Shown: piece after piece, positions 19,482-63,289 of the stretch | Layout of the letters: each line of letters starts with the position of its first letter | Position numbering within the stretch: the stretch's first letter is position 1 | Position numbers and translations under genes: made by a program | Notes under the pieces: model-generated | What the model was told of the DNA's origin: nothing | The model's input: only the letters and a program-made list of their open reading frames with translations | The model's database searches: none | NCBI RefSeq assembly: GCF_900101815.1 | Contig: NZ_FNAO01000006.1 | Location: 248,001 to 312,000, forward strand | Reading direction: 5' to 3' | From: Pricia antarctica | GTDB lineage: Bacteria; Bacteroidota; Bacteroidia; Flavobacteriales; Flavobacteriaceae | DNA: 64,000 bases

Positions 19482-19641
19482 AATTCATTTTGTCTTTTTC
19501 TTTTACCTACGAATATTATATTTTGAGGCCCTATTCCTCATTTTTAAAAACCGTAGCCCTACTATGCTGTTAAACGATGACTTCATCTGAGCTCAAAAGC
19601 CGATATGCCCCGTTCCAAAACAATACCTCTGAATGAGTTCT
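19482..19641 (-). repeat. Dispersed ~160-bp palindromic element, copy A
   Basis: Read on the minus strand, it matches copies at 31523, 48481 and 63133 in several blocks: a GAACTC-type left end, TTTGGAAC, GCTTTTG, a core AGCATAGTAGGGCTACGG, and a right block ending AGGTAAAAGAAAA. It resembles copy B most. Its right end lies 10 bases from the fecR ATG, reading toward it. Confidence 0.75.
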
Positions 19642-19740
19642 ATTCATAACTTAGATGGAATCAAACAGATGGATTCAAAAAGTCTTCTTTACTTAAAGGA
19701 TGCGTTTTTTTAAAAAACCCCTATGTTTAATAATTTTTAT

Positions 19741-19748
19741 TAGCTTTG
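19741..19748 (+). promoter_or_regulatory. -7 box (TAGCTTTG) of the ECF sigma gene
   Basis: An exact TAnnTTTG match 18 bases before the ATG at 19767, giving a very short leader. No canonical TTG at -33. Confidence 0.5.
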
Positions 19749-19766
19749 AGAGGTGATTAAATACGA

Positions 19767-20303
19767 ATGAAAGAGGATACATTGTTAAAAGGATTGCAAA
19801 AAGGCAATGCTTCCGCGTACAATGAACTTTTTTCGGAATACTATGTCTGGCTGTGCAATTACATCTTCACGCTATCCAATGATAGAGGCCTATCGGAGGA
19901 TATCGTGCAAGAGACCATCATCCATATTTGGGAGAAAAGAAAACGAATATCCGTTCAACACTCCCTTAAAAATTATCTGTTCCGGTCTTGCCACAATCGA
20001 TTCTTGGCCCATTTAAGAAAAAAGAAAGTAAGGTTTGATTTTTTGGATCAAATCCGTTGGGATATACTTGCCGAGGTCCGCATCGAACCCGAAGTACGGC
20101 AAGATTCGAAAATCCAAAAAATGCATCGACTTATCGATGAACTTCCCCCGCGGTGCAGGGAAGTCTTCGTCAAGAATAAGTTCGAAAAAAGGCAATACAA
20201 AGAAATAGCCGTCGATATGGGTATATCTATTAAGACCGTAGAAAACCAAATGTCGAAGGCCCTGCAGTTCTTAAGGGAGAATGCTACAGGGTTTATGTTG
20301 TGA
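19767..20303 (+). CDS. RNA polymerase ECF sigma factor (Bacteroidota expansion type)
   Basis: A 178-residue sigma-70 factor of the family expanded in Bacteroidota. Region 2 (about 15-85; LSEDIVQETIIHIWEKR, SLKNYLFRSCHNRFLAHL) and region 4 (about 120-172; LPPRCREVFVKNKFEKRQYKEIA, IKTVENQMSKALQFL) are complete. It probably pairs with the FecR protein encoded divergently at 18302-19471 and drives the FecR-receptor operon when the receptor binds ligand. The divergent layout is unlike the common sigma-fecR-receptor order. Confidence 0.92.
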   Translation: MKEDTLLKGLQKGNASAYNELFSEYYVWLCNYIFTLSNDRGLSEDIVQETIIHIWEKRKRISVQHSLKNYLFRSCHNRFLAHLRKKKVRFDFLDQIRWDILAEVRIEPEVRQDSKIQKMHRLIDELPPRCREVFVKNKFEKRQYKEIAVDMGISIKTVENQMSKALQFLRENATGFML

Positions 20304-20489
20304 AGATTTTTCTCGAATTGGAATCCTAGGACTGTAGGATGCTCGATACATAAAAATTACTTCAATCGGGATTTCATTCAGCCCGTTTCCAAATTTCATC
20401 GTTATCATTGCCAACACCTGTTTGAATCTAGGTATCTCTTTATACATCCATTTAATATGGTAAAAGTTTGACCAATTATTCCGCAAACC

Positions 20490-21257
20490 CTAATTCAGAT
20501 GGTACCTCCTTATCCCAATAAAAACAAACACCAATCCCGTATACCCAATAAAAAAAGGAATAATGTAGTCTTTTAGCCCAGCGACTTGCATCAATCCGAT
20601 GAGTAATAATTGAAAACCTAACCCGAACGTTGAAACACCGGTCATTAACCATTTAGGCAGGCTTTTAGCCTCCGCTGCCTTGGGATCCAGAAAATAAACG
20701 ACACGATCAAAAATCCCATAGAATAATTGGTATAGGGAGAAGAGGAAATCTACATGACTTTGCTTTTCGCCTTGCAGCGCCTTTGGGGCATCGATTTCGA
20801 AAATACGGCTGGTGGTGTCTCCTTGATATTTATTTCTCAGGATTACATAATAATAGTTGTACAATGTACCTTGGAGCTGTATGCCAAAAAATGCCAACAA
20901 TGTATAAATCAGCGACCCTTCGGTCACGTAGCATATGCTCAACAAAACCAGCAGGTTAATTACAATATCGGATACCGAATCGAGATAGCGGCCTGTGTGT
21001 GAGGGCGTATGCTTGATACGGGCCAATTCCCCGTCCGCAGCATCTAGAATGGATTTTAGTACCAAAAAGAAGAGCGCGGCCCATGGCATATACTGGAGTA
21101 TGCTGGCGATGGCGACCAAACCGGAAACGATAAAGGACAAGGTCACCTGCACCGGGGTAACGGATGTATTTTTAAGCACTCGGGCAATAGCTTTGGCGAC
21201 CGGTCTGCCATAATCGGACAGGTCGATGAATTGGTGTTCTTTGGGGAGTTTCGACAT
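20490..21257 (-). CDS. CDP-alcohol phosphatidyltransferase family protein
   Basis: A 255-residue integral membrane enzyme starting at ATG 21257 (MSKLPKEHQFIDL). The frame is open to 21320, but the added N-terminus looks non-native and a likely promoter box (CAAAGATA on the plus strand, 21329-21336) lies just upstream. The catalytic pattern DG-x2-AR-x8-G-x3-D-x3-D is complete in DAADGELARI ... GRYLDSVSD, so it should transfer an alcohol onto a CDP-activated lipid or polyol. Several membrane helices flank it. The acceptor is unknown; no phospholipid-pathway neighbour is present. Confidence 0.88.
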   Translation of the reverse strand: MSKLPKEHQFIDLSDYGRPVAKAIARVLKNTSVTPVQVTLSFIVSGLVAIASILQYMPWAALFFLVLKSILDAADGELARIKHTPSHTGRYLDSVSDIVINLLVLLSICYVTEGSLIYTLLAFFGIQLQGTLYNYYYVILRNKYQGDTTSRIFEIDAPKALQGEKQSHVDFLFSLYQLFYGIFDRVVYFLDPKAAEAKSLPKWLMTGVSTFGLGFQLLLIGLMQVAGLKDYIIPFFIGYTGLVFVFIGIRRYHLN

Positions 21258-21374
21258 GAAGCATACCCGTTGAAATTGAAAACCGGAAACGAAAACACGC
21301 TGGCCGGTCACGTTTTTCAAACAGGATGCAAAGATAAGGCTAAAAATAGATCTCAGAATTTAAACCATATAGTT

Positions 21375-21407
21375 TTGTGGTGTTTTCAATGCTTATCCTT
21401 ACTTTTA
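21375..21407 (+). promoter_or_regulatory. Probable promoter of the ThuA/dehydrogenase gene
   Basis: TTG at 21375-21377, a 22-base spacer, then TACTTTTA at 21400-21407 (one mismatch to TAnnTTTG), 33 bases before the ATG. Confidence 0.45.
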
Positions 21408-21440
21408 TACCCTGAAATTTAACAAATATTCCCCCCATAC

Positions 21441-24400
21441 ATGAAAAATAGTGTCCTTCTCTCGATATTGACCCTTTGCCTAATCTTTGCAAGTTGCGGA
21501 AATCAACGCGACGGAAATCCAAAAATCCTAGTCTTTTCAAAAACCATGGGCTTTAAGCACGCCTCAATACCTACTGGAATTGCCGCCATTCAAAAGTTGG
21601 GGAAAGAAAACGGATTCGAAGTGGACACGACTAAAAATGCGGAACTTTTCAACGAAGACAACCTAAATCAATACTCCGCCGTCGTTTTTCTGAGCACAAC
21701 GATGAACGTGCTGGACGCCAAGCAAGAGGCCGCGTTCGAGCGTTATATTCAATCGGGTGGCGGATACGCCGGTATTCATGCCGCGGCCGATACCGAATAC
21801 GATTGGGGCTGGTATACCAAATTGGTCGGGGCGCAATTTCTGAGCCATCCTTCCGGTACGCCCGAAGCGGACTTTATAATTAAGGACAAAAAATTTGTCG
21901 CGACCCAATTCTTTACAGATACTATTTGGCACAGGGCCGACGAAATCTATAACTATAAAAAAATAAATCCTGATGTTAAGGTCATCATGACGGTCGACGA
22001 ATCTTCCTATAAGGGCGGTGCAAACGGCGATTACCATCCTTTTGCCTGGTATCACCAATATGATGGAGGACGTGCCTTTTACACCGGAGCGGGACATACC
22101 GATGAGAGTTATTCGGACGAGCAATTCCTCAAACACATTTTGGGGGGTATCGAATATGCCATTGGCGATAACGAAAATCTGGATTATGAAAAAGCGGTGA
22201 CCCAAATTCCACCTGATGCGGACCGGTTTTCAAAAAAACAGCTAGTGGTCGGTGAATTTTTTGAACCTACCGAAATGGCGGTACTTCCCAATAACGACGT
22301 GCTGATAGCGCAACGGCGGGGCGAGATCATGTTGTACGAAGACGCAACCAAAGAGGTGAAACAAGTGGGGGCTCTTGACGTTTATTTCAAAACTTTGAAC
22401 ACACCCGGGGTCAATGCCGAGGAAGGTTTGATGGGATTGCAAAAAGACCCGAACTATGCCGAGAACCATTGGATTTACCTGTATTATGCCCCTTCCGGGG
22501 ATGAATGGGTGAACCGGCTTTCGCGCTTTACTTTTAAGGACGGTGTTTTCGACAAAGCATCCGAACAGATTATTTTGAATGTGGAAACCCAACGCGAAAT
22601 CTGCTGCCACACTGGGGGATCCATTGCTTTTGGACCTGATGATTTGCTCTACTTATCCACAGGGGACAACTCCACGCCTTTCAATGAAAAGGGTGTGAAA
22701 TATGTAAATAGCGGGTATGCGCCCTTAAACGATATTCCCGGACATGAGCAGTACGATGCGCGCCGATCATCTGGCAACACCAATGATTTGCGAGGAAAAA
22801 TTATACGGATAAAAGTCAATGCCGATGGTAGTTATGATATTCCCGAAGGAAATCTCTTCGCCAAAGGAACCGAAAAGACCCGTCCTGAAATATATACCAT
22901 GGGGCATCGTAACCCGTATCGGATTTCCGTAGACCCGAAAAAGGGCTATTTGTATTGGGGCGAAGTCGGACCCGATGCGCGACAGGATTCCATGGATACC
23001 CGGGGGCCTCGTGGCTACGACGAAATGAACCAAGCAAGGGAAGCGGGTAACTACGGTTGGCCATTATTTATCGGAGATAACAAACCTTATGTGAGTTACA
23101 ACTACAAAACCGGGGAAAGTGGGAAAGCTTTCGACCCCAAAAAGCCGATTAACGATTCGCAGAACAATACGGGGTTAAGAGAACTGCCGCCTGCGCAGCC
23201 CGCGTACATTTTTTATCCCTATGCGGAAACCACTGAGTTCCCGGAGGTGGGTTCTGGCGGGAGAAACGCTATGGCCGGCCCGACCTATTATTCCGATCAG
23301 TATCCCAACGGAGGCACCCTCCCGGGATATTATGATGGTAAGACGATTATCTACGATTGGATGCGGGGCTGGATGATGGCCGTCACTCTCTTCGATGATG
23401 CCACGTTCAACAAAATGGAACCTTTTGCCTCGGATATCGACCTAAACAATCTGATCGATATGGAAATGGGTCCCGATGGCCGAGTATACCTTCTAGAATA
23501 TGGCAGCGGGTGGTTCTCGAAAAATGCGGATTCCGGTTTGAGCTATATTGAATATAACGGCGGGAACCGTCCGCCACTGATCGATAATATGATAGTGGAC
23601 AAAACCTCGGGCAAATTGCCCTTGTCGATAACCGCCAAGGTGGAAGCCAAGGATAGGGAAGCCGATGCCCTGACCTATGTTTGGGACCTCGGGAACGGGG
23701 AAACCCTAGAAACCAAGGATCCCGAAGTATCTTACACTTATCAGGATGCTGGGGATTACAAGGTTTCCGTAACCGTGAAAGACGACAAGGGCGAGGCCGT
23801 GAAAAGTGAAATCGTTCCGGTGGTCGCCGGTAATTCAAGGCCTGAGATCGCCATCGATTTGAACGGGGGTAACTCTTCGTTCTTCTTAAAGGGCGTGCCA
23901 ATTAAGTATTCCGTTACGGCCACTGACCCTGACGGTACTACCATTGACCCTTCAAACTTGTTCGTTTCGGTAGATTATCTTGAGAGTTACGATCAGCAGA
24001 ACCAATCGTTAGGGCATCAACAAGTATCTGCCACAGTAACAGGTAAAGCCTTGACCCAAGGTATGGACTGTAAGACTTGTCACAAGGAAGCGGAAGCCTC
24101 TATCGGGCCGAAGTACACCGATGTGGCCAAGAAGTACGCGGGCAAATCGGATGCCAAGAGTTACCTTCAGAAAAAAATAGTATCAGGTGGGGGTGGCGTT
24201 TGGGGCGAGGTAGTCATGCCTGCACACCCGAGTGTAACGCCGGATGAGACCCGGCAAATTGTCGAGTACATTATGGCTTTGGCAGACGATTCCGCAAAAG
24301 CAAAATCGTTGCCCGCTTCCGGGATCATCGAACCCAACCCCAAACAAGGTGATAACGTGCTGGTGTTGACCGCTAGTTATACCGATAATGGGGCAACCGG

Positions 24401-24845
24401 TACCATTCCCCTGACGGGAGTAAAATCAGTAGCCTTGCAAGGGAGTACGGTCAGCTTTTCCGATAAAACCAAAGCAGAGGGATTCACCGCTGTTCAATTC
24501 AATGGTCAGAACCTGTTGATGGTGCCCAAACAACAAGGATGGTTTGCGCTGGATAACGTAGATCTTAAGGGAGTCAATTCGGTCACCTTGACCGCAGGAT
24601 GGCGAAAAGCCCCCAAAACCGGACTTGATTTCGAGATGCATTTGAATGCACCGGACGGCGAACTTTTGGGTAAAGGTAGTATGCCCAAACCAGCGGCCGG
24701 TCAGCCGGGAGGAATTTTTTCGATTGAAATGGAAAAGGACAAGGATGTCAAAGCGGATGAAATCTATTTTGTATATAAACCTAAGGAAGGTGAAGATAGT
24801 GGTGCGCCCGTAGCACTAAGGAATGTACGGTTCGAGGCGAAATAA
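21441..24845 (+). CDS. Multidomain lipoprotein: ThuA, PQQ-type sugar dehydrogenase, PKD, cytochrome c
   Basis: A 1134-residue exported lipoprotein (lipobox FASC, Cys19). A ThuA-like domain (about 28-240; FSKTMGFKH, GGYAGIHAAADTEYDW, HPFAWYHQYDGGRAFYTGAG) is followed by a six-bladed glucose/sorbosone dehydrogenase propeller (about 270-690; PTEMAVLPNNDVLIAQR, EEGLMGLQKDP, YTMGHRNPYRISVDP, GGRNAMAGPTYY). Next come a PKD domain (about 700-790; TYVWDLGNGETLETKDPEVSYTYQDAG), a cytochrome c domain with haem motif C877-K-T-C880-H881 and likely axial Met926 (VVMPAHP), and a C-terminal beta-sandwich resembling a carbohydrate-binding module. It probably oxidises a sugar outside the cytoplasm and passes electrons to its own haem. 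The substrate is unknown. The flanking spacers suggest a single-gene unit. Confidence 0.9.
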   Translation: MKNSVLLSILTLCLIFASCGNQRDGNPKILVFSKTMGFKHASIPTGIAAIQKLGKENGFEVDTTKNAELFNEDNLNQYSAVVFLSTTMNVLDAKQEAAFERYIQSGGGYAGIHAAADTEYDWGWYTKLVGAQFLSHPSGTPEADFIIKDKKFVATQFFTDTIWHRADEIYNYKKINPDVKVIMTVDESSYKGGANGDYHPFAWYHQYDGGRAFYTGAGHTDESYSDEQFLKHILGGIEYAIGDNENLDYEKAVTQIPPDADRFSKKQLVVGEFFEPTEMAVLPNNDVLIAQRRGEIMLYEDATKEVKQVGALDVYFKTLNTPGVNAEEGLMGLQKDPNYAENHWIYLYYAPSGDEWVNRLSRFTFKDGVFDKASEQIILNVETQREICCHTGGSIAFGPDDLLYLSTGDNSTPFNEKGVKYVNSGYAPLNDIPGHEQYDARRSSGNTNDLRGKIIRIKVNADGSYDIPEGNLFAKGTEKTRPEIYTMGHRNPYRISVDPKKGYLYWGEVGPDARQDSMDTRGPRGYDEMNQAREAGNYGWPLFIGDNKPYVSYNYKTGESGKAFDPKKPINDSQNNTGLRELPPAQPAYIFYPYAETTEFPEVGSGGRNAMAGPTYYSDQYPNGGTLPGYYDGKTIIYDWMRGWMMAVTLFDDATFNKMEPFASDIDLNNLIDMEMGPDGRVYLLEYGSGWFSKNADSGLSYIEYNGGNRPPLIDNMIVDKTSGKLPLSITAKVEAKDREADALTYVWDLGNGETLETKDPEVSYTYQDAGDYKVSVTVKDDKGEAVKSEIVPVVAGNSRPEIAIDLNGGNSSFFLKGVPIKYSVTATDPDGTTIDPSNLFVSVDYLESYDQQNQSLGHQQVSATVTGKALTQGMDCKTCHKEAEASIGPKYTDVAKKYAGKSDAKSYLQKKIVSGGGGVWGEVVMPAHPSVTPDETRQIVEYIMALADDSAKAKSLPASGIIEPNPKQGDNVLVLTASYTDNGATGTIPLTGVKSVALQGSTVSFSDKTKAEGFTAVQFNGQNLLMVPKQQGWFALDNVDLKGVNSVTLTAGWRKAPKTGLDFEMHLNAPDGELLGKGSMPKPAAGQPGGIFSIEMEKDKDVKADEIYFVYKPKEGEDSGAPVALRNVRFEAK

Positions 24846-24899
24846 TAGGCGGATTCCATTCCGTCTTAGAACCCGGTTTTGGAGTAGGGCAGGCGTTTG

Positions 24900-24932
24900 A
24901 CGCAAATCTTTACGTTTAGAAACGATTTGCGT
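24900..24932. terminator. Hairpin between convergent genes
   Basis: Perfect 9-bp arms ACGCAAATC (24900-24908) and GATTTGCGT (24924-24932) in the 171-base spacer between convergent genes. It lacks a T-run, so a terminator role is only likely by position. Confidence 0.4.
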
Positions 24933-25016
24933 TGATTCGTCAATAAGGTGCTATTTTACTCCTATTTTGGTGAACACTGCACTGTACCCCGCATTAAACC
25001 ATTCCCTCGCTAAATC

Positions 25017-26624: not shown

Positions 26625-26645
26625 TTCTGTAGTATTTAGTGCTTT

Positions 26646-31522: not shown

Positions 31523-31682
31523 GAACTCATTTAAACTTTTTATTTGGAACCGAGAATATCAGCTTTTGTGGCCAGATAATCTCATTTTTAAGTAGCATAG
31601 CAGGGCTACGGTAATTAAAAATGAGGAAATATGGACTCAAAATGTGATATTCGAAGGTAGAAGAAAAGGTGTATGTGAGTTC
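31523..31682 (+). repeat. Dispersed ~160-bp palindromic element, copy B
   Basis: Bounded by GAACTC (31523-31528) and GAGTTC (31677-31682). The outer arms share GAACTCA, CTTTT, ACC and GAATATCA when one is reverse-complemented. An inner perfect 11-bp stem CTCATTTTTAA / TTAAAAATGAG encloses the core AGCATAGCAGGGCTACGG. The right end lies 32 bases before the GH15 start, pointing to it. Confidence 0.8.
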
Positions 31683-42227: not shown

Positions 42228-42420
42228 AGCTTGATTCGAATGGTTGTTGAAATATAGGGAAAATTTTGGTTTGGAGTTTAGCGTTTATGGTTTGGGGCCG
42301 AAAAAATAGCAGGAAAGGCACGTTATATATTTTACAAGATTGCACAAGGGATGCACAGACCGTCCTGCCGGCGAGTCGAGGTTTCACGGAGAATGATGAA
42401 AAGAATTTTCATTAATTTTT

Positions 42421-42522
42421 ACTGCGACTGCGACTGCGACTGCGACTGCGACTGCGACTGCGACTGCGACTGCGACTGCGACTGCGACTGCGACTGCGAC
42501 TGCGACTGCGACTGCGACCGCG
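42421..42522. repeat. Hexanucleotide microsatellite (ACTGCG)17
   Basis: Sixteen perfect ACTGCG units (42421-42516) followed by one variant (ACCGCG). It begins 193 bases upstream of the acyl-CoA ligase start and ends 5 bases from the GNAT stop codon. Perfect length of 96 bases implies recent expansion. Confidence 0.98.
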
Positions 42523-42527
42523 ACTTT

Positions 42528-42986
42528 CTACTTCAAATGTAATTTCATCCCCACATGACTGGCGGTGAATCCCAAATTTTCATAGAATTTTAAAGCTTTC
42601 GACCGTTTTTTGTCCGTGGTCAGTTGCACCAAATGAGCTTTTTTCTCTTTTGCTCTTTGGATGGCCCATTGGAACAACTGTTGTCCGATGCCTTGTCCGC
42701 GATAATCCTCATGCACTCGAACAGCTTCGATTTGGGCGCGGATGCCGCCTTGATAGGTCAGGTATTGAATGAAGCTCAATTGTAAGGCACCAATAATCTG
42801 ACCTGATTGGGTTTCCATAACCATTAATTCTTGATTGGGGTCGGCGAAGATATTTTTATAGGCGTCGTAGTATTTTTCGGGAAGAGGGTCACGGTAATCT
42901 TCACGCAGCTGGCCTAGTGTATCGTTAGCGATCAAGGAGACAATCGATGGGACATCCTTTTTTTTGGCTTCACGAATGGTCAACAC
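42528..42986 (-). CDS. GNAT-family N-acetyltransferase
   Basis: A 152-residue acetyltransferase. The acetyl-CoA-binding motif A is VHEDYRGQGIGQQLFQWAI (Q/R-x-x-G-x-G/A), preceded by strand IEAVRV and followed by the C-terminal KALKFYENLGF motif B. Substrate unknown. There is no ATG; the start is the GTG at 42984-42986 (GTG-TTG-ACC). It is bracketed by hexanucleotide arrays 5 bases after its stop and 19 bases before its start. It lies downstream of purL on the same strand, so it may be cotranscribed with purL through the array. Confidence 0.85.
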   Translation of the reverse strand: MLTIREAKKKDVPSIVSLIANDTLGQLREDYRDPLPEKYYDAYKNIFADPNQELMVMETQSGQIIGALQLSFIQYLTYQGGIRAQIEAVRVHEDYRGQGIGQQLFQWAIQRAKEKKAHLVQLTTDKKRSKALKFYENLGFTASHVGMKLHLK

Positions 42987-43005
42987 AATTATAATATTTT
43001 ATTTT

Positions 43006-43077
43006 TGCTACTGCTACTGCTACTGCTACTGCTACTGCTACTGCTACTGCTACTGCTACTGCTACTGCTACTTTTAC
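43006..43077. repeat. Hexanucleotide microsatellite (TGCTAC)12
   Basis: Eleven perfect TGCTAC units (43006-43071) plus one variant (TTTTAC). On the minus strand the unit reads CAGTAG. The array begins in the last codons of purL: CAG-TAA (Gln-stop), with each further unit adding an in-frame TAG. Length change therefore cannot lengthen PurL, but it would change the 5' side of the GNAT gene. Confidence 0.98.
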
Positions 43078-46000
43078 TGCTTACTCTTTTCCTCCACCCA
43101 TTCCCTAGCATTCACAAAAGCGGCCAACCAAGGTGAAACAGTGTCGTTTCTATCCTTTGGATAATAGGCCCAGTTCCAAGGAAAAATCGAACGTTCTATA
43201 TGTGGCATTGTTACTAAATGGCGGCCGGATGTGTCGCACAGCATAGCAGTATTGTAATCGCTGCCGTTGGGATTGGCGGGATAGCCAGCGTAACCGTATT
43301 TCGCCACGATATGATAGTTTTCTTCGGACTGCGGGAGGACAAACTTGCCCTCACCGTGGGAAATCCAAACACCTAAGGTGCAACCTTCCAAACTGGAAAG
43401 CATTACCGAGTTGTTTTTTTGGATTTTGACCGAGCTAAAATTGCTCTCGTGTTTGTGGGAAGCGTTGTACGTCATTTTACCGTGCGTTTCGTGATCGGGA
43501 TTGATGAGGTCGAGCTCCATGAACAACTGGCAACCGTTGCAGATGCCTACGGATAAAGTATCGGGTCTGGCAAAAAAGTTTTTGATAACCGTATTGGCCT
43601 TTTCGTTGTATTTGATCGCTCCGGCCCAACCCTTGGCACTCCCCAACACATCGGAGTTGGAAAAACCGCCGACTGCACCTAGGAATTTAATGTCTTCAAG
43701 GTTTTCACGCCCTGAAATCAGGTCGGTCATGTGCACGTCTTTGACATCGAAGCCGGCCAAGAACATGGCGTTGGCCATTTCGCGTTCGGAGTTACTGCCT
43801 TTTTCGCGGAGTATTGCCGCTTTGGGACGCCCATTGCGAGGAGCAACGCCCGAAGGGCCTTGAGACGAAGCAATCTGTTGAGATCGGGGCGAGGGTACTT
43901 CAAGAGACTTCCCACCATGCTCAACCGATTGCTTCGCTTCGTCTGCCCTGCGGGCAGTCGAGCTCGCAATTTCTTCAGGAAAAACATACGTCAACCCCTG
44001 CTCCTTATAATTCTTATACCGCTCTTTTGCCAAACCGTTCGACGTTTGTTTATCATCCAATAAATAGGAAGTCTTGAACCATGTATCCCTTAAAGAGGCT
44101 ATGTTCAATCCCATTTCCATACCTCCGTTTTTTATGTTCAGCTTACTTTCGGAAGCAACTTTACCTATCGTTTTAAAATCGATTTTTTTGGTGGATAGTA
44201 TTTTTTCCAGGGAGGCATCCCCTTGAAAAACAATCCCCGCATTTTCGGAGAACAAGAGTTTTATCGTATCCGATTCCCCCAGATCCGATAGATCTAATTC
44301 GGCGCCCAACCCGTTATCCGCAAAGCACATTTCTAGCAATGTAGTTATCAATCCACCGGAAGCAACATCATGGCCTGCCCTAATTTGTCCGTTTTTAATT
44401 AAAGTTTGAATCGCGTTGAATGCGGATTTAAAATAAGCGTCATCGATAATTGTTGGGGCTTCGTTTCCGATGGCATTTCGGATTTGCCCGAAGGATGAAC
44501 CGCCCAATTTGTAAGTATCTTTTGATAGGTTGATGTAATAGATTAAACCGCCGTCTTTTTGTAATACCGGCTCAATGACTTTGGTGATATCATCGCAATG
44601 TCCAGCGGCAGAAATAATGACCGTTCCGGGAGAAATTACGTCGCCATCAGGATATTTTTGTTTCATGGATAACGAATCCTTCCCCGTGGGAACGTTAATT
44701 CCGAGTGCGATGGCAAATTCCGAGATGGCCTCGACCGCCTTGTATAATCGGGCATCCTCACCTTCATTCTTACAGGGCCACATCCAATTGGCGGAGAGGG
44801 AGACGGATTTGAGTCCGTCTTTCAGCGGTGCCCAGATGATATTAGTCAAGGCCTCGGCAATGCTGTTTTTGCTGCCTGCCGCCGGATCGATAAGCCCTGA
44901 AATAGGGGAGTGGCCAATGCTGGTGGCGATACCTTCTTTTCCTTTAAAATCCAAGGCCATTACGGCACAATTGTTCAAGGGTAGCTGTAAGGGACCTGTA
45001 CATTGCTGTTTGGCGACCCGTCCGCCGACGCAGCGATCTACTTTATTGGTCAGCCAGTCTTTACAGGCGACGGCCTCCAGCTGCAATAGCTGTTCGAGAT
45101 ATTCATGAAAGAATTCCAAGGAATAATCCGCATTTTCATAAGTTCTTTGAAGAGTTGTATCGGTCATCACGGTCTTCGGCGAGCTTCCGAAAATGTCCGA
45201 AAGATTCACATCCATAGGCTTTTGGCCGCTGGTTTTGGATTCGAAGGTAAAACGGTCGTCTCCGGTAACTTCGCCGACTTCATACATCGGTGAACGTTCG
45301 CGTTCGGCGATTCGGGCGAGCAGGTCTATGTCTTTTTCACCGATGACCAAGCCCATGCGTTCTTGGGATTCGTTGCCGATTATCTCCTTTGCTGATAGGG
45401 TCGGGTCACCTACGGGAAGTTTATCGAGATCGATTTTTCCGCCGGTTTCTTCCACAAGTTCGGATAAGCAGTTGAGATGCCCTCCCGCCCCGTGATCGTG
45501 AATAGAAACAATGGGGTTGGTATCGTTTTCAACCATCCCACGAATGGCGTTCGCCGCCCGCTTTTGCATTTCGGGATTGGAACGTTGTATGGCATTTAGC
45601 TCGATCTTGGAATCGAGTTCCCCCGTATCCGCACTGGAAACGGCCGCCCCACCCATGCCGATGCGATAATTGTCACCACCGAGAATCACGATTTTATCGC
45701 CGGCTTTGGGTGTGTCCTTCAAAGCTTGATCCGCTTTGCCGTAGCCGATGCCACCGGCCTGCATGATAACTTTGTCGTAGCCCAGTCTTCGCCTGCTCTC
45801 GTGCCAAGTGCGTTTGGCATGTATATCATCTTCGGAATCGTCCGGCTCAGTTTCTCCGGTATTGTAAGTGGCGTCAGGTATGGCCGTTGTATATTGATGC
45901 TCAAAAGTTAGCACGCTCCCCGCAATCAAGGGTTGTCCGAATTTATTGCCAAAGTCCGACGCCCCGTTCGATGCTTTGATAAGAATATCCATTGGGGTCT

Positions 46001-48470: not shown

Positions 48471-48478
48471 CAAAGGTA
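48471..48478 (-). promoter_or_regulatory. -7 box of rsmB
   Basis: CAAAGGTA on the plus strand, an exact TAnnTTTG on the minus strand, 18 bases before the rsmB ATG and 2 bases from the edge of the dispersed element, so the -33 region would lie inside that element. Confidence 0.55.
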
Positions 48479-48480: not shown

Positions 48481-48641
48481 GAACTCCTCTCAAGTTTTTC
48501 TTTTACCTTCAAATTTCACATTGTGCAACCTAATTTTGTCTTTTTTGAGTTCCGTAGCTAAGGCTATGCAATTCAAAAAACCCTTCATTAGGGCACAAAA
48601 GCCAAAATTTTCGGTTCCAAAGAAAAACTCAAGACGAATTC
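48481..48641 (-). repeat. Dispersed ~160-bp palindromic element, copy C
   Basis: Bounded by GAACTC (48481-48486) and GAATTC (48636-48641). On the minus strand it has TTTGGAACCGAAAA, GCTTTTGTGC, the core GCATAGCCTTAGCTACGG and AAATTTGAAGGTAAAAGAAA, matching copies A, B and D. An inner stem TTTTTTGAATT / AACTCAAAAAA replaces the different inner stem of copy B while staying paired. Its right end faces rsmB, 28 bases from the ATG. Confidence 0.8.
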
Positions 48642-54694: not shown

Positions 54695-54748
54695 TAAAGA
54701 CCTTTAGGCTATTTTGACACCTACAAATATCACATTTTAAACCGCGAT

Positions 54749-54799
54749 TTCACCATTATTTTAAAAACAAGACAGCGTTGCTTTTAAAATAATGGTGAA
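54749..54799. terminator. Long perfect hairpin between the mutase and exporter genes
   Basis: Perfect 18-bp arms (54749-54766 and 54782-54799; TTCACCATTATTTTAAAA and its complement) with a 15-base loop, and partial outer pairing of AAACC with GGTTT. It lies 34 bases after the mutase stop. No long T-run, so it may be a terminator or a processing or stability element. Confidence 0.5.
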
Positions 54800-56542: not shown

Positions 56543-56778
56543 GGACTAGGTTCTTTTGTTATTGTATTGTTTCTTTATCAATAATGTTCGGCGTGAGCGG
56601 CCGATAAAGGTAGGAAGATATGGAATTTTTGGGATAAAAGGATGGAAAATGCTATTTCGTCGGATGTTATTTTAACTAAACCTTACGACTAATTTCTTAG
56701 TCATGTTGATAATTTAAAATTAGGCTATTACAAGAAGACGATAAACTTTCGATTAAAAATAATATGATAAGGAAGAAT
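56543..56778. other. Spacer without recognisable features
   Basis: A 236-base AT-rich gap between same-strand genes. No gene, clear terminator or promoter box seen. Confidence 0.4.
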
Positions 56779-57762
56779 CTAGTTTTTATTTTTTTTAGTA
56801 TTTCCATTGACATCCCCTAAATTAACCCCCTCCGAAATCGTATACCGCGTCTCATTTCTCCGGTTACGAACCAAAATCTCCCCAAGAAACCCGGCCAAAA
56901 ACAACTGTGTGCCGAGAAGCATAGCGGTCAGGGCGATATAGAATTGGGGCCGATCGGTGATTAAGCGTCCGAATTTGTTGATGAAGAGTTTGTCGATACC
57001 CAAGTAGATGGCGAAACCGAAACCGATAATAAACATCAATACGCCCAAAGCGCCGAAGAGGTGCATCGGGCGGCGGGCGAATTTCGATACGAACCAGATG
57101 GTGATGAGGTCTAGAAATCCATTGGTAAATCGTTCCATGCCGAATTTTGTTTTACCGTATTTTCGGGCTTGGTGGGATACGATTTTTTCGCCAATATTGG
57201 AGAAGCCCGCATTTTTGGCGAGTACGGGAATATATCGGTGCATTTCTCCCGAGACTTCGATATTTTTAACCACGGTCTTGTTGAAAGCTTTTAACCCACA
57301 ATTGAAGTCGTGCAGTTGTACGCCCGACGTGCGTCTCGCCGCCCAGTTGAATAATTTCGAGGGCATATTTTTGGAGAGAACGGAATCGTAGCGTTTTTTC
57401 TTCCAGCCCGAAACCAGGTCGTATCCTTCCTTGGTAATGAGCTGGTATAATTCGGGAATTTCTTCGGGATTATCCTGTAGATCGGCATCCATGGTAATTA
57501 TTACCTCGCCTTGAGCCGCTTTGAAACCGGCATGCAAGGCCTGTGACTTTCCGTAGTTCTTGAAAAAACGTATACCTCTGACTTGGGGATACGCTTGGGA
57601 AAGCTGCTGGATCAGTTCCCATGAATTGTCCGTACTGCCATCATCGATAAATAGAATTTCGTACGAATACCCTTTTGACCGCATGACCTTAACAATCCAA
57701 TCGTGCAGTTCTTGAAGGGATTCTTCCTCGTTGAGAAGCGGTATGATTATGGATAGATTCAT
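56779..57762 (-). CDS. Family 2 glycosyltransferase with C-terminal membrane helices
   Basis: A 327-residue inner-membrane enzyme of the DPM1/ArnC/GtrB type. The GT-A domain (1-225) has IIPLLNEEESLQELHDW, FIDDGSTDNSWELI and the DxD motif in ITMDADLQDNPEEI. Two membrane helices follow (about 232-255 and 275-295). It should transfer a sugar from a nucleotide donor to undecaprenyl phosphate or another lipid. It follows the DUF4199 gene by 51 bases on the same strand. Confidence 0.9.
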   Translation of the reverse strand: MNLSIIIPLLNEEESLQELHDWIVKVMRSKGYSYEILFIDDGSTDNSWELIQQLSQAYPQVRGIRFFKNYGKSQALHAGFKAAQGEVIITMDADLQDNPEEIPELYQLITKEGYDLVSGWKKKRYDSVLSKNMPSKLFNWAARRTSGVQLHDFNCGLKAFNKTVVKNIEVSGEMHRYIPVLAKNAGFSNIGEKIVSHQARKYGKTKFGMERFTNGFLDLITIWFVSKFARRPMHLFGALGVLMFIIGFGFAIYLGIDKLFINKFGRLITDRPQFYIALTAMLLGTQLFLAGFLGEILVRNRRNETRYTISEGVNLGDVNGNTKKNKN

Positions 57763-57813
57763 GGATTGCTGCTGTAGATCCGTCCAAAAATACGATTTTG
57801 ATACCGAAGATAT

Positions 57814-58335
57814 TTAATAGGCCGGTTTTTGTTTTTTTAGAATAAGGCCGGTAATCAAACCAATCACAAAACCAATAATAATGTTAAATAGGAGGATTAG
57901 GGGATATGTCACCCATGCAAATTTCTTTTGCATCTCGATACCCTGATCAATTTGCTCCTCGGTAAGTTTTGGATTGTTTGCCAACGCCTCCTGTTTTCCG
58001 ATTTCTGTAAGGTTTGCCATATAATCGGGCTCGATGAAGTTCGAAAAAACGTAAAAATAAAGTAGTCCGATTACCCCGGCGATCAAGGCCACACCGGCCC
58101 CCACCTTTAGTGCGTCGGAAATAGTTAAAAAACCGAGATTCGCTTTTTTAAATTGTACGATACCCAAAACGATACCAGCAGCTAATATGGCTATTTGAGT
58201 GCCTTGAACTGCAATACCCCGTTCGTATTGCATGTCTATCATGTAAAGCATAACGCCGAATACAATACCCGCACCACCTACGAGCAAGCCATAATTCAAA
58301 GCGTATTTTCCGGTTTTAGGTTGATTTTCTTCCAT
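57814..58335 (-). CDS. DUF4199 membrane protein
   Basis: A 173-residue inner-membrane protein with about four hydrophobic helices (near 12-28, 42-58, 76-96 and 135-160) and the DUF4199 look: an N-terminal GLLVGGAGIVFGVMLYMID and a central soluble loop (MANLTEIGKQEALANNPKLTEEQ in pieces). Function unknown. In many Bacteroidota it precedes a GT2 glycosyltransferase gene as here, so it may act with that enzyme. Confidence 0.85.
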   Translation of the reverse strand: MEENQPKTGKYALNYGLLVGGAGIVFGVMLYMIDMQYERGIAVQGTQIAILAAGIVLGIVQFKKANLGFLTISDALKVGAGVALIAGVIGLLYFYVFSNFIEPDYMANLTEIGKQEALANNPKLTEEQIDQGIEMQKKFAWVTYPLILLFNIIIGFVIGLITGLILKKQKPAY

Positions 58336-58438
58336 TTTAAGTTCTAATTTTAGGTTGTTTAAAAAGTTGGTTGTTCCAAATGGGATATTGTTACAGCTAA
58401 ATGTACATTATTTTTATCGTACTTTTTATAGGTTAGCA

Positions 58439-58468
58439 TTGCAATTCTCCAAAAAATACCTAAATTTG
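58439..58468 (+). promoter_or_regulatory. Promoter of the L31 gene
   Basis: TTG (58439-58441), a 19-base spacer, and TAAATTTG (58461-58468), a full match to the Bacteroidota housekeeping promoter. The leader of about 45 bases includes a weak hairpin (GTGCC / GGCGC) that might serve ribosomal-protein feedback, which is speculative. Confidence 0.7.
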
Positions 58469-58519
58469 CAGCCTTAAAATGAGTGCCTGTCGGAATGGGC
58501 GCATAAAATTTTTAGCTCA

Positions 58520-59032
58520 ATGAAAAAAGACATCCACCCAGAGAATTATAGATTGGTAGCTTTTAAGGACATGTCGAACGACGAAGTGTTCTTGACCAAA
58601 TCTACCGCGGATACCAAAGAGACCCTAGAGGTCGACGGAACCGAATATCCACTGGTGAAGTTGGAAATTTCAAGAACATCGCATCCGTTCTATACCGGAA
58701 AGGCCAAACTTTTGGATACTGCCGGGCGTATCGACAAGTTCAAGAACAAGTACGACAAGTTCAAGAAGAAAAAGGCGGCTCCCGCAGAAAAATCGGCAAG
58801 GCAAGAAGCTCCAAAGGCCGAAGCTGGCAAGAAGGAAGCACCAAAAGCCGAAGCTATTAAAACAGAGGCTCCAAAAGCTGAAACAAAGGCGGTACCCGCT
58901 AAAAAAGAAGCTCCGAAGGCAGAAGCAAAAGCTGACACTGTTAAAAAGGAAGCTCCAAAAGCCGAAGCAAAGGCAGACACTCCTAAAAAGGAGGCTCCGA
59001 AAGCTGCAGGGGATACCAAAGAAAAAGAGTAA
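58520..59032 (+). CDS. rpmE2: Type B 50S ribosomal protein L31 with long C-terminal tail
   Basis: A 170-residue protein. Residues 1-84 are a complete zinc-free (type B) bL31: [37 protein letters not shown] and [13 protein letters not shown]. The usual length ends there. Residues 85-170 form a low-complexity tail with six EAPKA units, mostly as KKEAPKAEA or close variants, rich in Lys, Ala, Glu and Pro. Codons differ between units (for example GCT/GCA/GCC Ala), so the array is not a fresh DNA expansion. The tail should be disordered and would extend from the central protuberance of the ribosome. Its role is unknown. Confidence 0.95.
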
Positions 59033-59057
59033 TCTTTTTGTACAAAGCTATTTTATA

Positions 59058-59089
59058 AAATGCCCTCGATGTTCGGGGGCATTTTTTTT
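59058..59089 (+). terminator. Intrinsic terminator after rpmE2
   Basis: An 11-bp stem (59058-59068 with 59074-59084, one wobble), a 5-base loop and eight T in a row (59082-59089), 25 bases after the stop. Confidence 0.9.
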
Positions 59090-59191
59090 CCACATCTTCG
59101 TCCAACAAAATCCTTTCGAATAGAATAAGCATCAAACTTTAGCGTTTTTAAGGCAATACCGCTTTTTATTGCTTCACCGAAATAGCAACCC

Positions 59192-60367
59192 ATGAACTAC
59201 ATTCTTTTTGACGGCGCGGTCCGGAACAATCTGTTGCCATTTACGTTTACCAGACCAGTCGCGGACATCCGTATCGGTATTCTTACCATCCGCGAAAAAT
59301 GGGAAAAGTATCTGGGAAATACGACTACGACGATTACTGAAGACTACCTATCCGAAAAATATCCGATGGTAGAAATGGAGGAGAATGTTTTGATAAATGC
59401 CTCCTTTTTACCGACCAAAAAATTGGCAAATTTGATAGCAGATCTCAAAGAGAACGAGGCCATTTTCCAAGGGGAGGAAGTCATTGCCTTTTTTACAAAG
59501 CAAAGCCAGGAAGAGGTTGATTTTTCATCCTATAAAGCCATAGACTTCAAGGAAGATATACTGAGGCTTGTCAATACCTGGGATATTTTCGAAAAAAATG
59601 GAGCGGCTCTCGAAGCCGATTTCGAGCTGATTACCTCTGGAAGAAAAAGTGCACCCATTTCAAAATCAAATACCCTAATCTGTCCCGATCGCATTTTTGC
59701 GGAGCATGGTGCGATTGTCGAGCATAGTATTTTGAATGCTAAAGATGGCCCGATCTATTTGGGGAAGGATAGCGAAATCTGGGAAGGTAATTTGATTCGC
59801 GGTGCTTTTGCGCTATGTGAAAAAGCAGTGGTAAAAATGGGTGCCATGATCTATGGCGCCACTACCATCGGGCCCTATTCCAAAGTCTGTGGCGAAATTA
59901 GTAATGCGGTGATTTTTGGGTATTCCAGTAAGGGCCATGACGGATATTTGGGCAATTCGGTGCTGGGTGAGTGGTGCAATATCGGTGCTAGCAGCAACAA
60001 CTCGAACCTAAAGAACAATTACGCCAAAGTGCGTTTATGGAATTATGCTACTGAAACTTTTGAACAAACGGGACTCCAGTTTTGCGGCCTGATGATGGGC
60101 GACCATAGCAAAACGGCTATTAATACCATGTTCAATACGGGCACCGTAATCGGCGTGAACTGTAATATTTATGTACCCGGATTTCCGAGAAATTTCGTTC
60201 CTAGTTTTAGTTGGGGCGGGGCAACTGGCTTTTCTACCTACTTGCCTGAAAAAGCATTTGAAGCTGCCCAAGTAATGATGGCTCGAAGACATGTGGAATT
60301 CGACAATAGGGAAGCCCATATTCTAGAGCATGTATTTGAGCTTACGAAGAAGTGGCGGCATTATTAG
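59192..60367 (+). CDS. GlmU-family sugar nucleotidyltransferase-like protein
   Basis: A 391-residue protein of the Bacteroidota-specific GlmU-like family (TIGR03991). The N-terminal half is nucleotidyltransferase-related (MNYILFDGAVRNNLLPFTF, RPVADIRIGILTIREKWE) but lacks the usual Gly-rich pyrophosphorylase loop. The C-terminal half (about 165-350) is a left-handed beta-helix of hexapeptide repeats (HGAIVEHSILNAKDGPIYL, MIYGATTIGPYSKVCGEI). Its reaction is not established; a sugar-phosphate nucleotidyl- or acyltransfer step is likely. It lies between rpmE2 and mtaB on the same strand. Confidence 0.88.
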   Translation: MNYILFDGAVRNNLLPFTFTRPVADIRIGILTIREKWEKYLGNTTTTITEDYLSEKYPMVEMEENVLINASFLPTKKLANLIADLKENEAIFQGEEVIAFFTKQSQEEVDFSSYKAIDFKEDILRLVNTWDIFEKNGAALEADFELITSGRKSAPISKSNTLICPDRIFAEHGAIVEHSILNAKDGPIYLGKDSEIWEGNLIRGAFALCEKAVVKMGAMIYGATTIGPYSKVCGEISNAVIFGYSSKGHDGYLGNSVLGEWCNIGASSNNSNLKNNYAKVRLWNYATETFEQTGLQFCGLMMGDHSKTAINTMFNTGTVIGVNCNIYVPGFPRNFVPSFSWGGATGFSTYLPEKAFEAAQVMMARRHVEFDNREAHILEHVFELTKKWRHY

Positions 60368-60512
60368 GGGGTGCAAGTGAGTCCCGAGGCTACGGGGATA
60401 CCATAATAAGAAAAACAAATTACCAAAATTCCCAAATTTCTAAATGGCACCAGTATATTTGTAATCCATACATTGGAAAGCGTATTTGCAAGTATTTGAA
60501 AAGAATTAGGGT

Positions 60513-61871
60513 ATGAACAAGAAAGTTGCCTTCTACACCTTGGGCTGTAAGCTCAACTTCTCCGAAACCTCTACCATAGCAAGAGGGTTTACCGAGGAAG
60601 GCTTCCAACGCGTAGCCTTTTCGGAAGCTGCCGATATGTACGTCATCAATACCTGCTCGGTAACCGAGAATGCCGACAAGCGCTTCAAGACCATTGTGAA
60701 AAAAGCGCAAAAAGCGAATCCCGATGCCTTTGTGGCTGCCATTGGTTGCTATGCACAGCTAAAGCCCGAAGAGCTGGCCGCGGTCGATGGTGTCGATCTG
60801 GTTTTGGGTGCTACCGAAAAATTTAAGATTACCGATTACATCAATGATATTTTGAATCGTCCCTCGACCGCGCTTAGGATGACAGAAATTCATTCCTGCG
60901 AAATTGAGGATGCTGACTTCTACGTTGGCAGCTACGCCATCGGGGACCGGACACGTGCTTTTTTGAAAGTGCAGGATGGATGTGATTACAAATGCACCTA
61001 TTGCACCATTCCACTGGCGCGGGGTATTTCCCGTAGCGATACGCTGGATAATGTGCTAAGAAATGCTGCGGAGATATCGGCCCAGGGAATTAAGGAAATC
61101 GTTTTGACCGGTGTCAATATTGGTGATTATGGCAAAGGGGAGTTCGCTAACAAAAAGCACGAACATACTTTTTTTGATTTGGTTAAGGCTTTGGATGAAG
61201 TAGAAGGCATCCACAGATTGCGGATTTCATCCATAGAGCCCAATCTTTTAAAGAACGAGACCATTGACTTTGTTGCGCAGAGCAAAACCTTTGTACCCCA
61301 TTTCCATATTCCCTTACAAAGCGGAAGCGACCAGATGCTAAAACGGATGCGCCGCCGCTATATGAGCAATCTGTATGAGGATAGAGTTCGAAGGATTAGG
61401 GAAGCCATGCCGCATGCCTGTATCGGAGTAGATGTTATTGTTGGCTTTCCAGGGGAAACCGACGAACTTTTTTTGGAGACCTATCATTATCTCAACGAAC
61501 TCGATATTTCGTATTTACATGTGTTTACCTATTCGGAAAGGGAAAACACCCCTGCAGCTGAAATGGATGGGGTAGTGTCCAACAACGTCAGAAAGAAGCG
61601 CAGCAAGATGCTTCGCGGGCTATCCGCCAAAAAACGTAGAGTATTTTATGAGGGTCAGTTAGGCGCGGTGCGTCGTGTTTTATTCGAAGGGGAAAACAAA
61701 TCGGGCTATATTCATGGATTCACCGAAAATTACGTTAAGGTAAAAGCTCCTTGGGATCCAACCTTGGTAAATACATTGCATACGGTCAAATTGACCGAAA
61801 TTGCGGATGACGGAATGGTGCGGTTTGAATTCATTGCGAGCGAAGCGACGCAAGCTGTTTCAATTTTCTAG
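60513..61871 (+). CDS. mtaB: tRNA threonylcarbamoyladenosine methylthiotransferase
   Basis: A 452-residue radical-SAM enzyme that adds a methylthio group to t6A37 of tRNAs reading ANN codons. An N-terminal MTTase domain (LGCKLNFSETSTIARGF, INTCSVTENAD) precedes the radical-SAM core with the 4Fe-4S cysteines C157, C161 and C164 (CDYKCTYC) and a C-terminal TRAM domain. Two stretches derive from dispersed repeats: residues 117-124 (PSTALRMT) before EIHSCEIEDADFYVGSY, and the last 11 or so residues, which read into a palindromic repeat (61833 on). The catalytic parts are unaffected. Confidence 0.94.
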   Translation: MNKKVAFYTLGCKLNFSETSTIARGFTEEGFQRVAFSEAADMYVINTCSVTENADKRFKTIVKKAQKANPDAFVAAIGCYAQLKPEELAAVDGVDLVLGATEKFKITDYINDILNRPSTALRMTEIHSCEIEDADFYVGSYAIGDRTRAFLKVQDGCDYKCTYCTIPLARGISRSDTLDNVLRNAAEISAQGIKEIVLTGVNIGDYGKGEFANKKHEHTFFDLVKALDEVEGIHRLRISSIEPNLLKNETIDFVAQSKTFVPHFHIPLQSGSDQMLKRMRRRYMSNLYEDRVRRIREAMPHACIGVDVIVGFPGETDELFLETYHYLNELDISYLHVFTYSERENTPAAEMDGVVSNNVRKKRSKMLRGLSAKKRRVFYEGQLGAVRRVLFEGENKSGYIHGFTENYVKVKAPWDPTLVNTLHTVKLTEIADDGMVRFEFIASEATQAVSIF

Positions 61872-61905
61872 AATGCCCAATAGATTGCGTCGCCTCGCTC
61901 GCAAT
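61833..61905. repeat. Palindromic repeat overlapping the mtaB 3' end
   Basis: Arms 61833-61853 and 61885-61905 are complementary at 20 of 21 positions (ATTGCGAGCGAAGCGACGCA type), with a 31-base loop that includes the mtaB stop codon. The same ATTGCGAG motif bounds the purL insertion at 43833. Confidence 0.85.
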
Positions 61906-61911
61906 TTCCCA

Positions 61912-61945
61912 TAAAAAAATCCCGCCGATCGGCGGGATTTTTTTA
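61912..61945. terminator. Bidirectional terminator between mtaB and the small acetyltransferase gene
   Basis: A perfect palindrome with stem CCCGCC / GGCGGG extended by A/T runs on both sides, loop GATC, T-run on each strand. It serves mtaB (plus) and the convergent gene at 61966 (minus). Confidence 0.92.
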
Positions 61946-61965
61946 TGATAATCCTAAAAATCATA

Positions 61966-62259
61966 TCAGATTCTGATGCCTACGGGCAACATCTCTTTGT
62001 ACTGTCTGTTTTTCCTCAAAAAGCCTGCAATTTCAGGGCTTGTTGGAACTACTCGAAGATTTTGCTCTTGAATGCGGTGAAGAACCGATTTTATAAAATC
62101 TTCCTTGAAACCCGCTTTGGTGATTTCTTCCGGAACTACTAATTTGGTCAGAAATACTTTACGCTCCTGTGAAGAATACTCGATTTTGGCCAAGTGACCA
62201 TCGACCCTAGTTTCAAATTGACGCAAGAAACTGTTGTCGTTGATTTCTACTTCATTCAT
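61966..62259 (-). CDS. Small GCN5-related N-acetyltransferase (YidJ-like)
   Basis: A 97-residue protein matching the compact acetyltransferase family (Acetyltransf_CG): N-terminal strands (FETRVDGHLAKIEYSSQER, VFLTKLVVPEEI), then a helix starting FKEDFIKSVLHRI and a late VVPTSPEIAGFL segment. The usual acetyl-CoA loop (G-x-G-x-A) is replaced by TKAGFKEDF, so binding may be weak. Substrate unknown. Convergent with mtaB. Its likely -7 box (62372-62379) would give a leader of about 110 bases that overlaps the divergent transcript. Confidence 0.75.
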   Translation of the reverse strand: MNEVEINDNSFLRQFETRVDGHLAKIEYSSQERKVFLTKLVVPEEITKAGFKEDFIKSVLHRIQEQNLRVVPTSPEIAGFLRKNRQYKEMLPVGIRI

Positions 62260-62323
62260 ATAGTTAGGATTTGTGTTTTGGCATCAGAAGAAAAAAACGG
62301 TGTTCTCAAGCCGTTAATTTAGC

Positions 62324-62379
62324 TACTTTTGCCTAGATTAGATAAACGATGGAATTTTCCAAAGCTGACAACAAAAGTA
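62324..62379. promoter_or_regulatory. Facing promoter boxes between divergent genes
   Basis: A TACTTTTG box on the plus strand (62324-62331) and CAAAAGTA, the same box on the minus strand (62372-62379), point at each other, so divergent transcripts would overlap by about 35 bases. They also form a 9-bp inverted repeat (CTACTTTTG / CAAAAGTAG). Confidence 0.5.
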
Positions 62380-62442
62380 GTGAATACTATGTTAATTTCC
62401 TAATTATTACCTGCTTTTGCTACTGAAAAATTAAAGTTCTTT

Positions 62443-63105
62443 ATGAACGATAGCAAGATTCATGTCTATTTTATGCCGGGTATGGCAGCCAATCCTACCA
62501 TCTTTAAGCACATCCATTTACCACATGAAATCTTTGAACCGCATTTGCTGGAATGGTTCGTGCCCTCAAAGAATATGAGCCTTGTGGACTATGCCCGGAC
62601 CATGAATAGGCAGATAGCACATGAGAATCCAGTTTTGATAGGAGTTTCTTTTGGGGGTTTGCTTGTCCAGGAGATGGCCAAATTGATTGCGGTGCGAAAG
62701 ATCATTATTATTTCAAGTGTAAAAGATGCTTCGGAACTGCCCAGACGGATGCACTTTGCCAGATATACTAAAATTCATAAGATTTTGCCAACAGGTTTAG
62801 TCAACAATATCGAACTTCTCGCCAAGTATGCTTTTGGCGAAACTGTGACCAAACGCTTATCATTATATGAAGAATATCTCTCTTTACGTGATAAAGTGTA
62901 CATCGATTGGTCGATTGATAAGATGGTCAATTGGCAACAGTCCGAACTTCCCGATAACCTTGTACATATCCATGGAGAAAAAGATACCGTTTTTCCGATT
63001 CGGAACATTACAGATTGTATTCCCGTGAAAAATGGTACGCACACCATGATCATCCATAGGGCAAAATGGTTTAATGAACATTTACCCACAATTATTTTGC
63101 AATAA
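62443..63105 (+). CDS. Alpha/beta hydrolase
   Basis: A 220-residue cytoplasmic hydrolase. The nucleophile elbow is GVSFGG (Ser about residue 69), the oxyanion region is FMPGMAANP near the start, the acidic residue is probably Asp in HGEKDTVFP (about 186), and the His lies in NGTHTMIIH (about 199). Esterase or thioesterase activity is likely; the substrate is unknown. The leader from the TACTTTTG box is over 100 bases. The next downstream gene is separated by copy D of the dispersed element. Confidence 0.85.
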   Translation: MNDSKIHVYFMPGMAANPTIFKHIHLPHEIFEPHLLEWFVPSKNMSLVDYARTMNRQIAHENPVLIGVSFGGLLVQEMAKLIAVRKIIIISSVKDASELPRRMHFARYTKIHKILPTGLVNNIELLAKYAFGETVTKRLSLYEEYLSLRDKVYIDWSIDKMVNWQQSELPDNLVHIHGEKDTVFPIRNITDCIPVKNGTHTMIIHRAKWFNEHLPTIILQ

Positions 63106-63132
63106 TGGAGTTGTAGTATTATATTAACTCAT

Positions 63133-63289
63133 AAATTCGATTTGAGTTTTTTTGGAACCGAAATTTTCGACTTTGTGCGCTAATGACGACTTTTTTTAAC
63201 AGCATAGCCGTAGATACGGTTCCCGAAAAAGAAAAATGAAGTGTGCAAAATTTAAAATCGCAGGCAAAAGAGAAACTCAAGACGAGTTC
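63133..63289 (+). repeat. Dispersed ~160-bp palindromic element, copy D
   Basis: From AAATTC (63133) to GAGTTC (63284-63289). It contains TTTGGAACCGAAATTTT, CTTTGTGC, the core GCATAGCCGTAGATACGG and AGGCAAAAGAGAAACTC, aligning with copies B and C over its whole length. The right end lies 54 bases before the lytic transglycosylase start, pointing to it. Confidence 0.78.

Follow-up and report, generated by a model that had tools for sequence, protein, structure and literature searches.

A family of palindromic miniature inverted-repeat elements in Pricia antarctica, likely moved by an IS5-family transposase

ERIC, an element similar in size to the one described here, is palindromic over its full length and has a TA duplication; REPINs are not known to have a fixed target duplication, and an ANT target duplication is a trait of the ISL2 group of IS5-family insertion sequences (ISs). 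The element in question is a palindromic repeat of ~160 bp, of which a first-pass annotation had noticed four copies in a stretch of 64,000 nucleotides from Pricia antarctica (hereafter, the window; NCBI RefSeq assembly GCF_900101815.1, contig NZ_FNAO01000006.1, positions 248,001 to 312,000). We propose, with a probability of roughly 0.93, that these repeats are copies of a family of palindromic miniature inverted-repeat transposable elements (MITEs), likely moved by an IS5-family transposase, that landed between genes. In contrast to the TA of ERIC, the duplication in this family measures 3 bp, and a transposase gene bordered by similar ends has been identified; on the basis of its duplication, the family was therefore not assigned to ERIC.

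In the passages considered from PMC10969869, ERIC appears as an intergenic MITE present in tens of copies, and this family resembles it in both respects. The REPINs of Pseudomonas, according to the relevant part of PMC3116915, are also miniature mobile hairpins, in which the end motifs are conserved and changes in the stem compensate each other, but they are shorter and linked to a REP-associated tyrosine transposase (RAYT). Among the Bacteroidota, excerpts of PMC4596501 describe BrickBuilt and MITE464 of Porphyromonas gingivalis as MITEs with IS5-type terminal inverted repeats (TIRs), BrickBuilt being intergenic; unlike in the present family, their TIR begins with GAGAC, and BrickBuilt contains tandem repeats and shows inconsistent duplications. 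An IS of the type that may mobilise the element is ISCaa3 of Amoebophilus (IS5 family, ISL2 group; 914 bp, 275 amino acids), of which a portion of PMC3196728 gives an account. The passages on related elements in PMC10969869, PMC9769881, PMC3196728, PMC4596501, PMC3116915 and PMC3733652 do not include this family. The element had been called undescribed, and indeed no description of the family was found among the literature matches listed, which represent the broad searches only in part; its kind, a MITE with an IS5-family partner, is known.

The four copies (A to D) aligned over their full length, and a sequence-only profile matched them at 19482-19640 (minus), 31523-31682 (plus), 48481-48641 (minus) and 63134-63289 (plus) with E values of 1.2e-24 or better, which upholds the number, size and places first assigned to them. 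Copy A (19481-19640, minus strand) lies between a sigma-70-type gene (plus) and fecR (minus), which are divergent, and is flanked on either side by ATA, the sole identical 3-bp flank among the four. Copy B (31523-31682, plus) is located between a GT20/trehalose-phosphatase gene (minus) and a GH15 gene (plus), also divergent, with the flanks TCA and TTA. Copy C (48481-48641, minus) belongs to another subfamily and lies upstream of rsmB between divergent genes (flanks CAT and ACT), and copy D (63133-63289, plus) is found upstream of an SLT transglycosylase gene in a tandem arrangement (flanks CAT and TTT). All four are full length. The names given to the downstream genes (FecR, GH15, RsmB/F and SLT transglycosylase) were confirmed, and so were the distances of 32, 28 and 54 bases to the last three; copy A is 9 bases from fecR rather than 10, given its exact ends. 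The palindromic character was also corroborated, since copy B is predicted to fold with −54.1 kcal/mol (z = −8.8). A fifth, degenerate copy, corresponding to model positions 63-155, was detected at 54701-54791 on the minus strand (profile E of 1e-6).

The characteristics expected from a MITE were observed throughout the family. The element is short, interspersed and present in many copies, it does not contain a transposase gene, and it shows TIRs with the consensus GAACTCATTTAGAC at either end (termini GAACTCATTTAGAC...GTCTAAATGAGTTC). Of 108 copies belonging to four genomes, 48 had identical 3-bp flanks at the exact profile ends, against 10.4 expected from re-pairing the flanks among copies; the genome of the window (G000) contributed 20 of 52, the congener G003 (79% complete) 15 of 30 and G002 7 of 17. 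The peaks seen with 2-bp flanks reflect these same three bases; flank lengths from 4 to 9 gave at most 5 of 108. The duplicated target is AT-rich and mostly ANT: in the left flank, A occupied the first position in 63 copies and T the third in 81 of the 108. Alignment with congeners revealed empty sites for copy B in G001, for copy C in G001 and G002 (element body) and for copy D in G001, G002 and G003. In addition, 109 of the 111 near-full copies overlap genes predicted by a simple caller by no more than 25 bases, in fetched sequence of which 82% is coding. These TIRs, target duplications and empty sites, together with an IS5-family element with similar ends, bear out the suggestion that the sequence is MITE-like.

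A BLAST comparison of copy B with its own genome gave 52 match rows with both strands counted, and the profile, built from 32 copies, gave 101. After merging opposite-strand matches at one place and excluding from later counts those own-genome places with E above 0.001, the profile matches kept correspond to 52 or more near-full copies, which cover no fewer than 136 of the 160 positions, and 7 fragments, a copy of 123 or fewer positions being counted as a fragment; these are lower bounds, as 150 of 1994 candidates were scored. A profile match at E 0.001 or better was present in 8 of 60 genomes, that of the window included. A deeper search of six genomes revealed 31 near-full copies in G003, 17 in G002, 9 in G009 and 2 in G022, and in G001 one fragment. 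Eleven weak or partial rows were left outside these counts (six in G002, two in G009, one in G003 and two in G036), of which the G003 row and one G036 row fall within other fetched stretches. A pattern scan matched 15 stretches, eight from Pricia sp. LH_M77, four from a Flavobacteriales metagenome-assembled genome (SZUA-72), one from Maribacter halichondriae and two from uncultured Flavobacteriaceae; all seven outside Pricia contain a profile match. G036, which is of another genus, harbours a relative family of 163-164 bp (L224-L235) with ends of the same kind, the centre CATAGC...GCTATG, and stems that are otherwise different yet complementary. Its copies share a mean identity of 92%, and the family looks young; by eye, 10 of its 12 fetched copies show identical 3-bp flanks, some of them not ANT.

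Regarding the transposase that may move the element, a PF13359 search of 38 genomes identified two open transposase frames in G003. The first belongs to an IS of 918 bp (L183, 711-1628), whose ends are like the MITE consensus in 17 and 18 of 19 bases and which has ATT on either side; its right end, GAAGTCATTTAGAC, is identical to 7 of 222 MITE ends. The second belongs to an IS of 927 bp (L185, 1400-2326), with 15 and 16 of 19 bases and ACT on either side. Both transposases (275-277 amino acids) contain PF13340 and PF13359, and they reach 116 and 128 bits with the IS5-family model NF033580 of NCBIfam, whose cut-off is 110. When 198 genomes were searched, relatives of these transposases at E 1e-30 or better were present in seven. 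Paired MITE-like ends occur at five of the 14 relative loci: the two described (L236 = L183, L243 = L185), L237 (16 and 14 of 19; flank AAT), L238 (15 and 15 of 19; flank ATT) and L244 (15 and 16 of 19, with the first 11 bases identical, GAACTCATTTAAGG on both sides; flanks AAT and ATT). The left flanks of L183, L185, L237, L238 and L244 are ATT, ACT, AAT, ATT and AAT, and in four of the five the same bases stand on both sides. The remaining nine loci comprise four in G026 with weaker ends (14 of 19) and five without pairable ends. Transposases with PF01609 were also considered as partners; among 30 loci scanned in seven genomes, two reached 15 of 19 on both sides, of which L212 is the same place as L185, and the ends at L208 belong to a whole 161-base MITE copy of G009.

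The putative partner ISs are like ISCaa3 in length and in the length of the transposase, but they contain a single open frame, the usual state in the ISL2 group, whereas ISCaa3 itself has two overlapping frames (PMC3196728). With ISs of this type the MITE shares similar ends; it differs in lacking a transposase gene, and the profile did not detect its palindromic interior in the IS. From these comparisons we consider that an autonomous partner with similar, though not identical, ends is probably represented by these ISs, that NCBIfam places it in the IS5 family, and that its length, protein size and ANT duplication suggest an ISL2-like group. As a separate observation, G026 contains two copies of a related IS5-type element ~5 kb apart (L242, L246, L248, L249), each matched in two pieces with TAG inside.

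The analysis of the stems indicated that the two arms have changed together. Both-sided changes were present in 21 of 58 pairs among 32 G000 copies, and in 37 of 62 pairs (252 of 2653 cells) among 43 copies chosen from five genomes, seven from G000 and none from G036. In this second set, the covariation score was 0.316, versus 0.142 (standard deviation 0.006) in shuffled alignments and at most 0.103 in slid ones, with the reservation that the pair counts use a structure derived from the same sequences and that the shuffles do not keep relatedness. Against these counts, RNAalifold applied to the 32-copy alignment gave no consensus structure and no pair. Several facing mismatches are fixed (G-A in 36 of 43 copies, A-A in 37 of 42, A-C in 39 of 43, and G-A in 42 of 43) and conserved across three genera; other loop positions vary among the 43 copies, and the G036 family does not have the A-C mismatch. 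The fate of single copies was different: when ancestral sequences were reconstructed from closely similar copies, 27 of the 34 testable non-shared G000 copies retain the fold no better than under random mutation, and at sites shared with G003 (four sites), two of eight branches retain it better. No correlation was found between identity to the consensus and palindromy. The covariation noted at first pass is thus borne out by the pair counts between subfamilies and genera, and not by RNAalifold, and most single copies that could be evaluated decay at a random rate. Overall, the covarying hairpin of the family appears well supported, and it would be a feature of the lineage that moves rather than of most sites in the host. 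Because the fold is lost in most resident copies tested while the arms stay complementary along almost their entire length as subfamilies and genera diverge, pairing would be a property of the spreading lineage, arising from selection or template switching.

To evaluate conservation in place, we compared sites occupied in both G000 and G003. Five element sites are shared, in addition to an internally deleted remnant in G003 at the site of copy C; copy B is one of those with an orthologous copy. This number is a lower bound, given that sites were sought through the immediate neighbour genes and that G003 is 79% complete. Identity between the elements is 85, 92, 92 and 93% at four sites and 82% at the fifth, where the alignment has 41 gap columns. 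It is 50-70% for the fourfold sites of the flanking genes (ignoring one flank with 4 sites and no true orthologue), and 82% for eight intergenic stretches in the window that lack the element (791 of 969 positions; range 61 to 90%), while non-orthologous copies of both genomes reach up to 96% identity. These values would neither show nor exclude that the host uses single copies.

It had been proposed that the element is always oriented toward the next start codon, and that it might be a mobile promoter or operator. Copies A, B and C each separate a divergent gene pair, so that a start is faced in either direction; they are uninformative on this matter, and only copy D is informative. In five genomes, 106 copies have two neighbours and do not overlap a gene; 40 are in sense and 22 in antisense orientation between tandem genes, 33 lie between divergent and 11 between convergent genes. 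Consequently 33 of the 106 (antisense or between convergent genes) face no start, which contradicts the rule, and the count leaves a slight sense bias in tandem regions (two-sided p = 0.03; once the G003 members of the five shared sites are removed, 38:21 and p = 0.036). This excess, the conservation of shared copies at about, or above, the level of plain intergenic DNA, and the location of the window copies 9-54 bases from starts would agree with a promoter or operator that was recruited for expression of the downstream gene. However, G000 (20:9) and G009 (5:1) account for most of the excess, with 8:7 in G003 and 6:5 in G002; in addition, 22 of the 62 tandem copies are reversed and 11 copies lie between converging genes. 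In G000, 15 of 51 copies are in divergent, 29 in tandem and 7 in convergent regions, and the window offers 3060, 3807 and 1012 bases of such intergenic space, respectively. A −7-like box was located at 48471-48478 (minus), two bases outside copy C and in front of rsmB (TACCTTTG), and another at 63316-63323 (plus), downstream of copy D (TAACTTTG). As had been stated, both lie outside the element. The first is also present in G001, G002 and G003, and thus in all four species compared, and the second has counterparts in G001 (TAACTTTG) and G003 (TAAATTTG), both without the element, whereas alignment of the orthologous site did not reveal it in G002. Given that these boxes are also found where a species has no element, or none of its body, at the site, we consider it very unlikely that the element is a mobile promoter.

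A structured regulatory RNA, either a leader or a small RNA repeated by chance, would account for covarying stems with several fixed facing mismatches and for the strong fold of copy B. It is nonetheless a quite unlikely explanation: the window gave no Rfam match at the gathering score (the best sub-threshold match at copy B was a miRNA precursor model, E 0.54), most testable copies lose the fold at a random rate, the gene context is not fixed, and the positions of the loop outside the mismatches vary. The weak strand bias and the copies facing no start also speak against the structured leader first suggested. A REPIN-type element moved by RAYT could be considered from the compensatory changes that REPINs share (PMC3116915, in the part cited above) and from the Y1_Tnp genes present in G000, G003, G009 and, weakly, G036. 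However, G002 has 17 near-full copies and no Y1_Tnp match at E 0.001, and none of 12 examined Y1_Tnp loci (out of 21 matches) has the element in its ~1.5-kb flanks, so this identity was rejected as extremely unlikely. Moreover, RAYT is not known to produce 3-bp duplications of fixed length or to act on IS5-like TIRs. A different matter is the origin of the hairpin, on which two proposals compete without touching the MITE assignment. In one, which we find possible but on balance doubtful, the arms have stayed complementary through template switching in replication, with no selection on the fold; the mechanism is described (PMC8794818), and the G003 orthologue of copy B (L144:3001-3159), in one arm of which a clustered change has closed the internal loop completely, is a candidate for such an event. 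This closure is unique among the 72 of 111 copies whose loop could be parsed, and the unparsed copy G003:C81 looks closed by eye. Homogenisation should erase facing mismatches, yet several are conserved across three genera. In the other, equally tentative, the element would be a mobile structured hairpin and more than a shrunken IS: selection in three or more genera would have maintained the paired stems and certain fixed loop and central bases (GCATAGC...GCTACGG) in the lineage, so that a folded single strand of RNA or DNA would aid its own spread or protect the element, and the host would then have retained a few copies at fixed positions.

Returning to the MITE family moved by an IS5-family transposase, several points weigh against it, besides the limits of the pair counts and the RNAalifold result. 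The movement is deduced from sequence; 60 of the 108 copies have no identical 3-bp flank, and in the window only copy A has one. The genome of P. antarctica itself yielded only a broken transposase relic with two stops (G000:C15:3641-4021) and no intact partner IS; the other ISs of this type come from G003 and from different genera. Inside L183, L185 or L240 the MITE profile found no match, the likeness being confined to the ends. Finally, the identity of shared copies compared with fourfold sites and plain intergenic stretches leaves room for constraint in place.

Three further repeats were seen in the window. Two tandem arrays with 6-base units, ACTGCG and ACTGCT, lie ~500 bases apart (42409-42543 and 42998-43096), flanking an open reading frame at 42528-42986. 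A 27-bp inverted repeat (89%) with a 19-base loop lies at 61833-61905, where the gene 60513-61871 ends; G003 has similar sequence at two other places (C2 and C81), and the repeat may represent a second, smaller repeat family. Short intergenic tandem arrays with 7-base units (AAACGCT and GCGAACA) are located at 10592-10713.

In the mechanism that we propose for the MITE family, an IS5-family transposase of an ISL2-like group would act in trans on the ends of the element, and insertion into AT-rich DNA would place it between genes whichever way it pointed. Selection may have favoured the ability of the lineage to fold, either single-stranded or as a cruciform, for instance to join the two ends or as an RNA surviving read-through; alternatively, its arms may have been homogenised by template switching. 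After insertion, since most testable copies lose the fold at a random rate, most copies are probably passengers beside host promoters and not host regulators. An orientation rule drawn from four copies shrinks to a slight bias when 106 are considered. With a palindromic MITE family of the Flavobacteriaceae and a plausible partner in the same genus, the question of the full-length hairpin in bacterial MITEs becomes open to a direct test.

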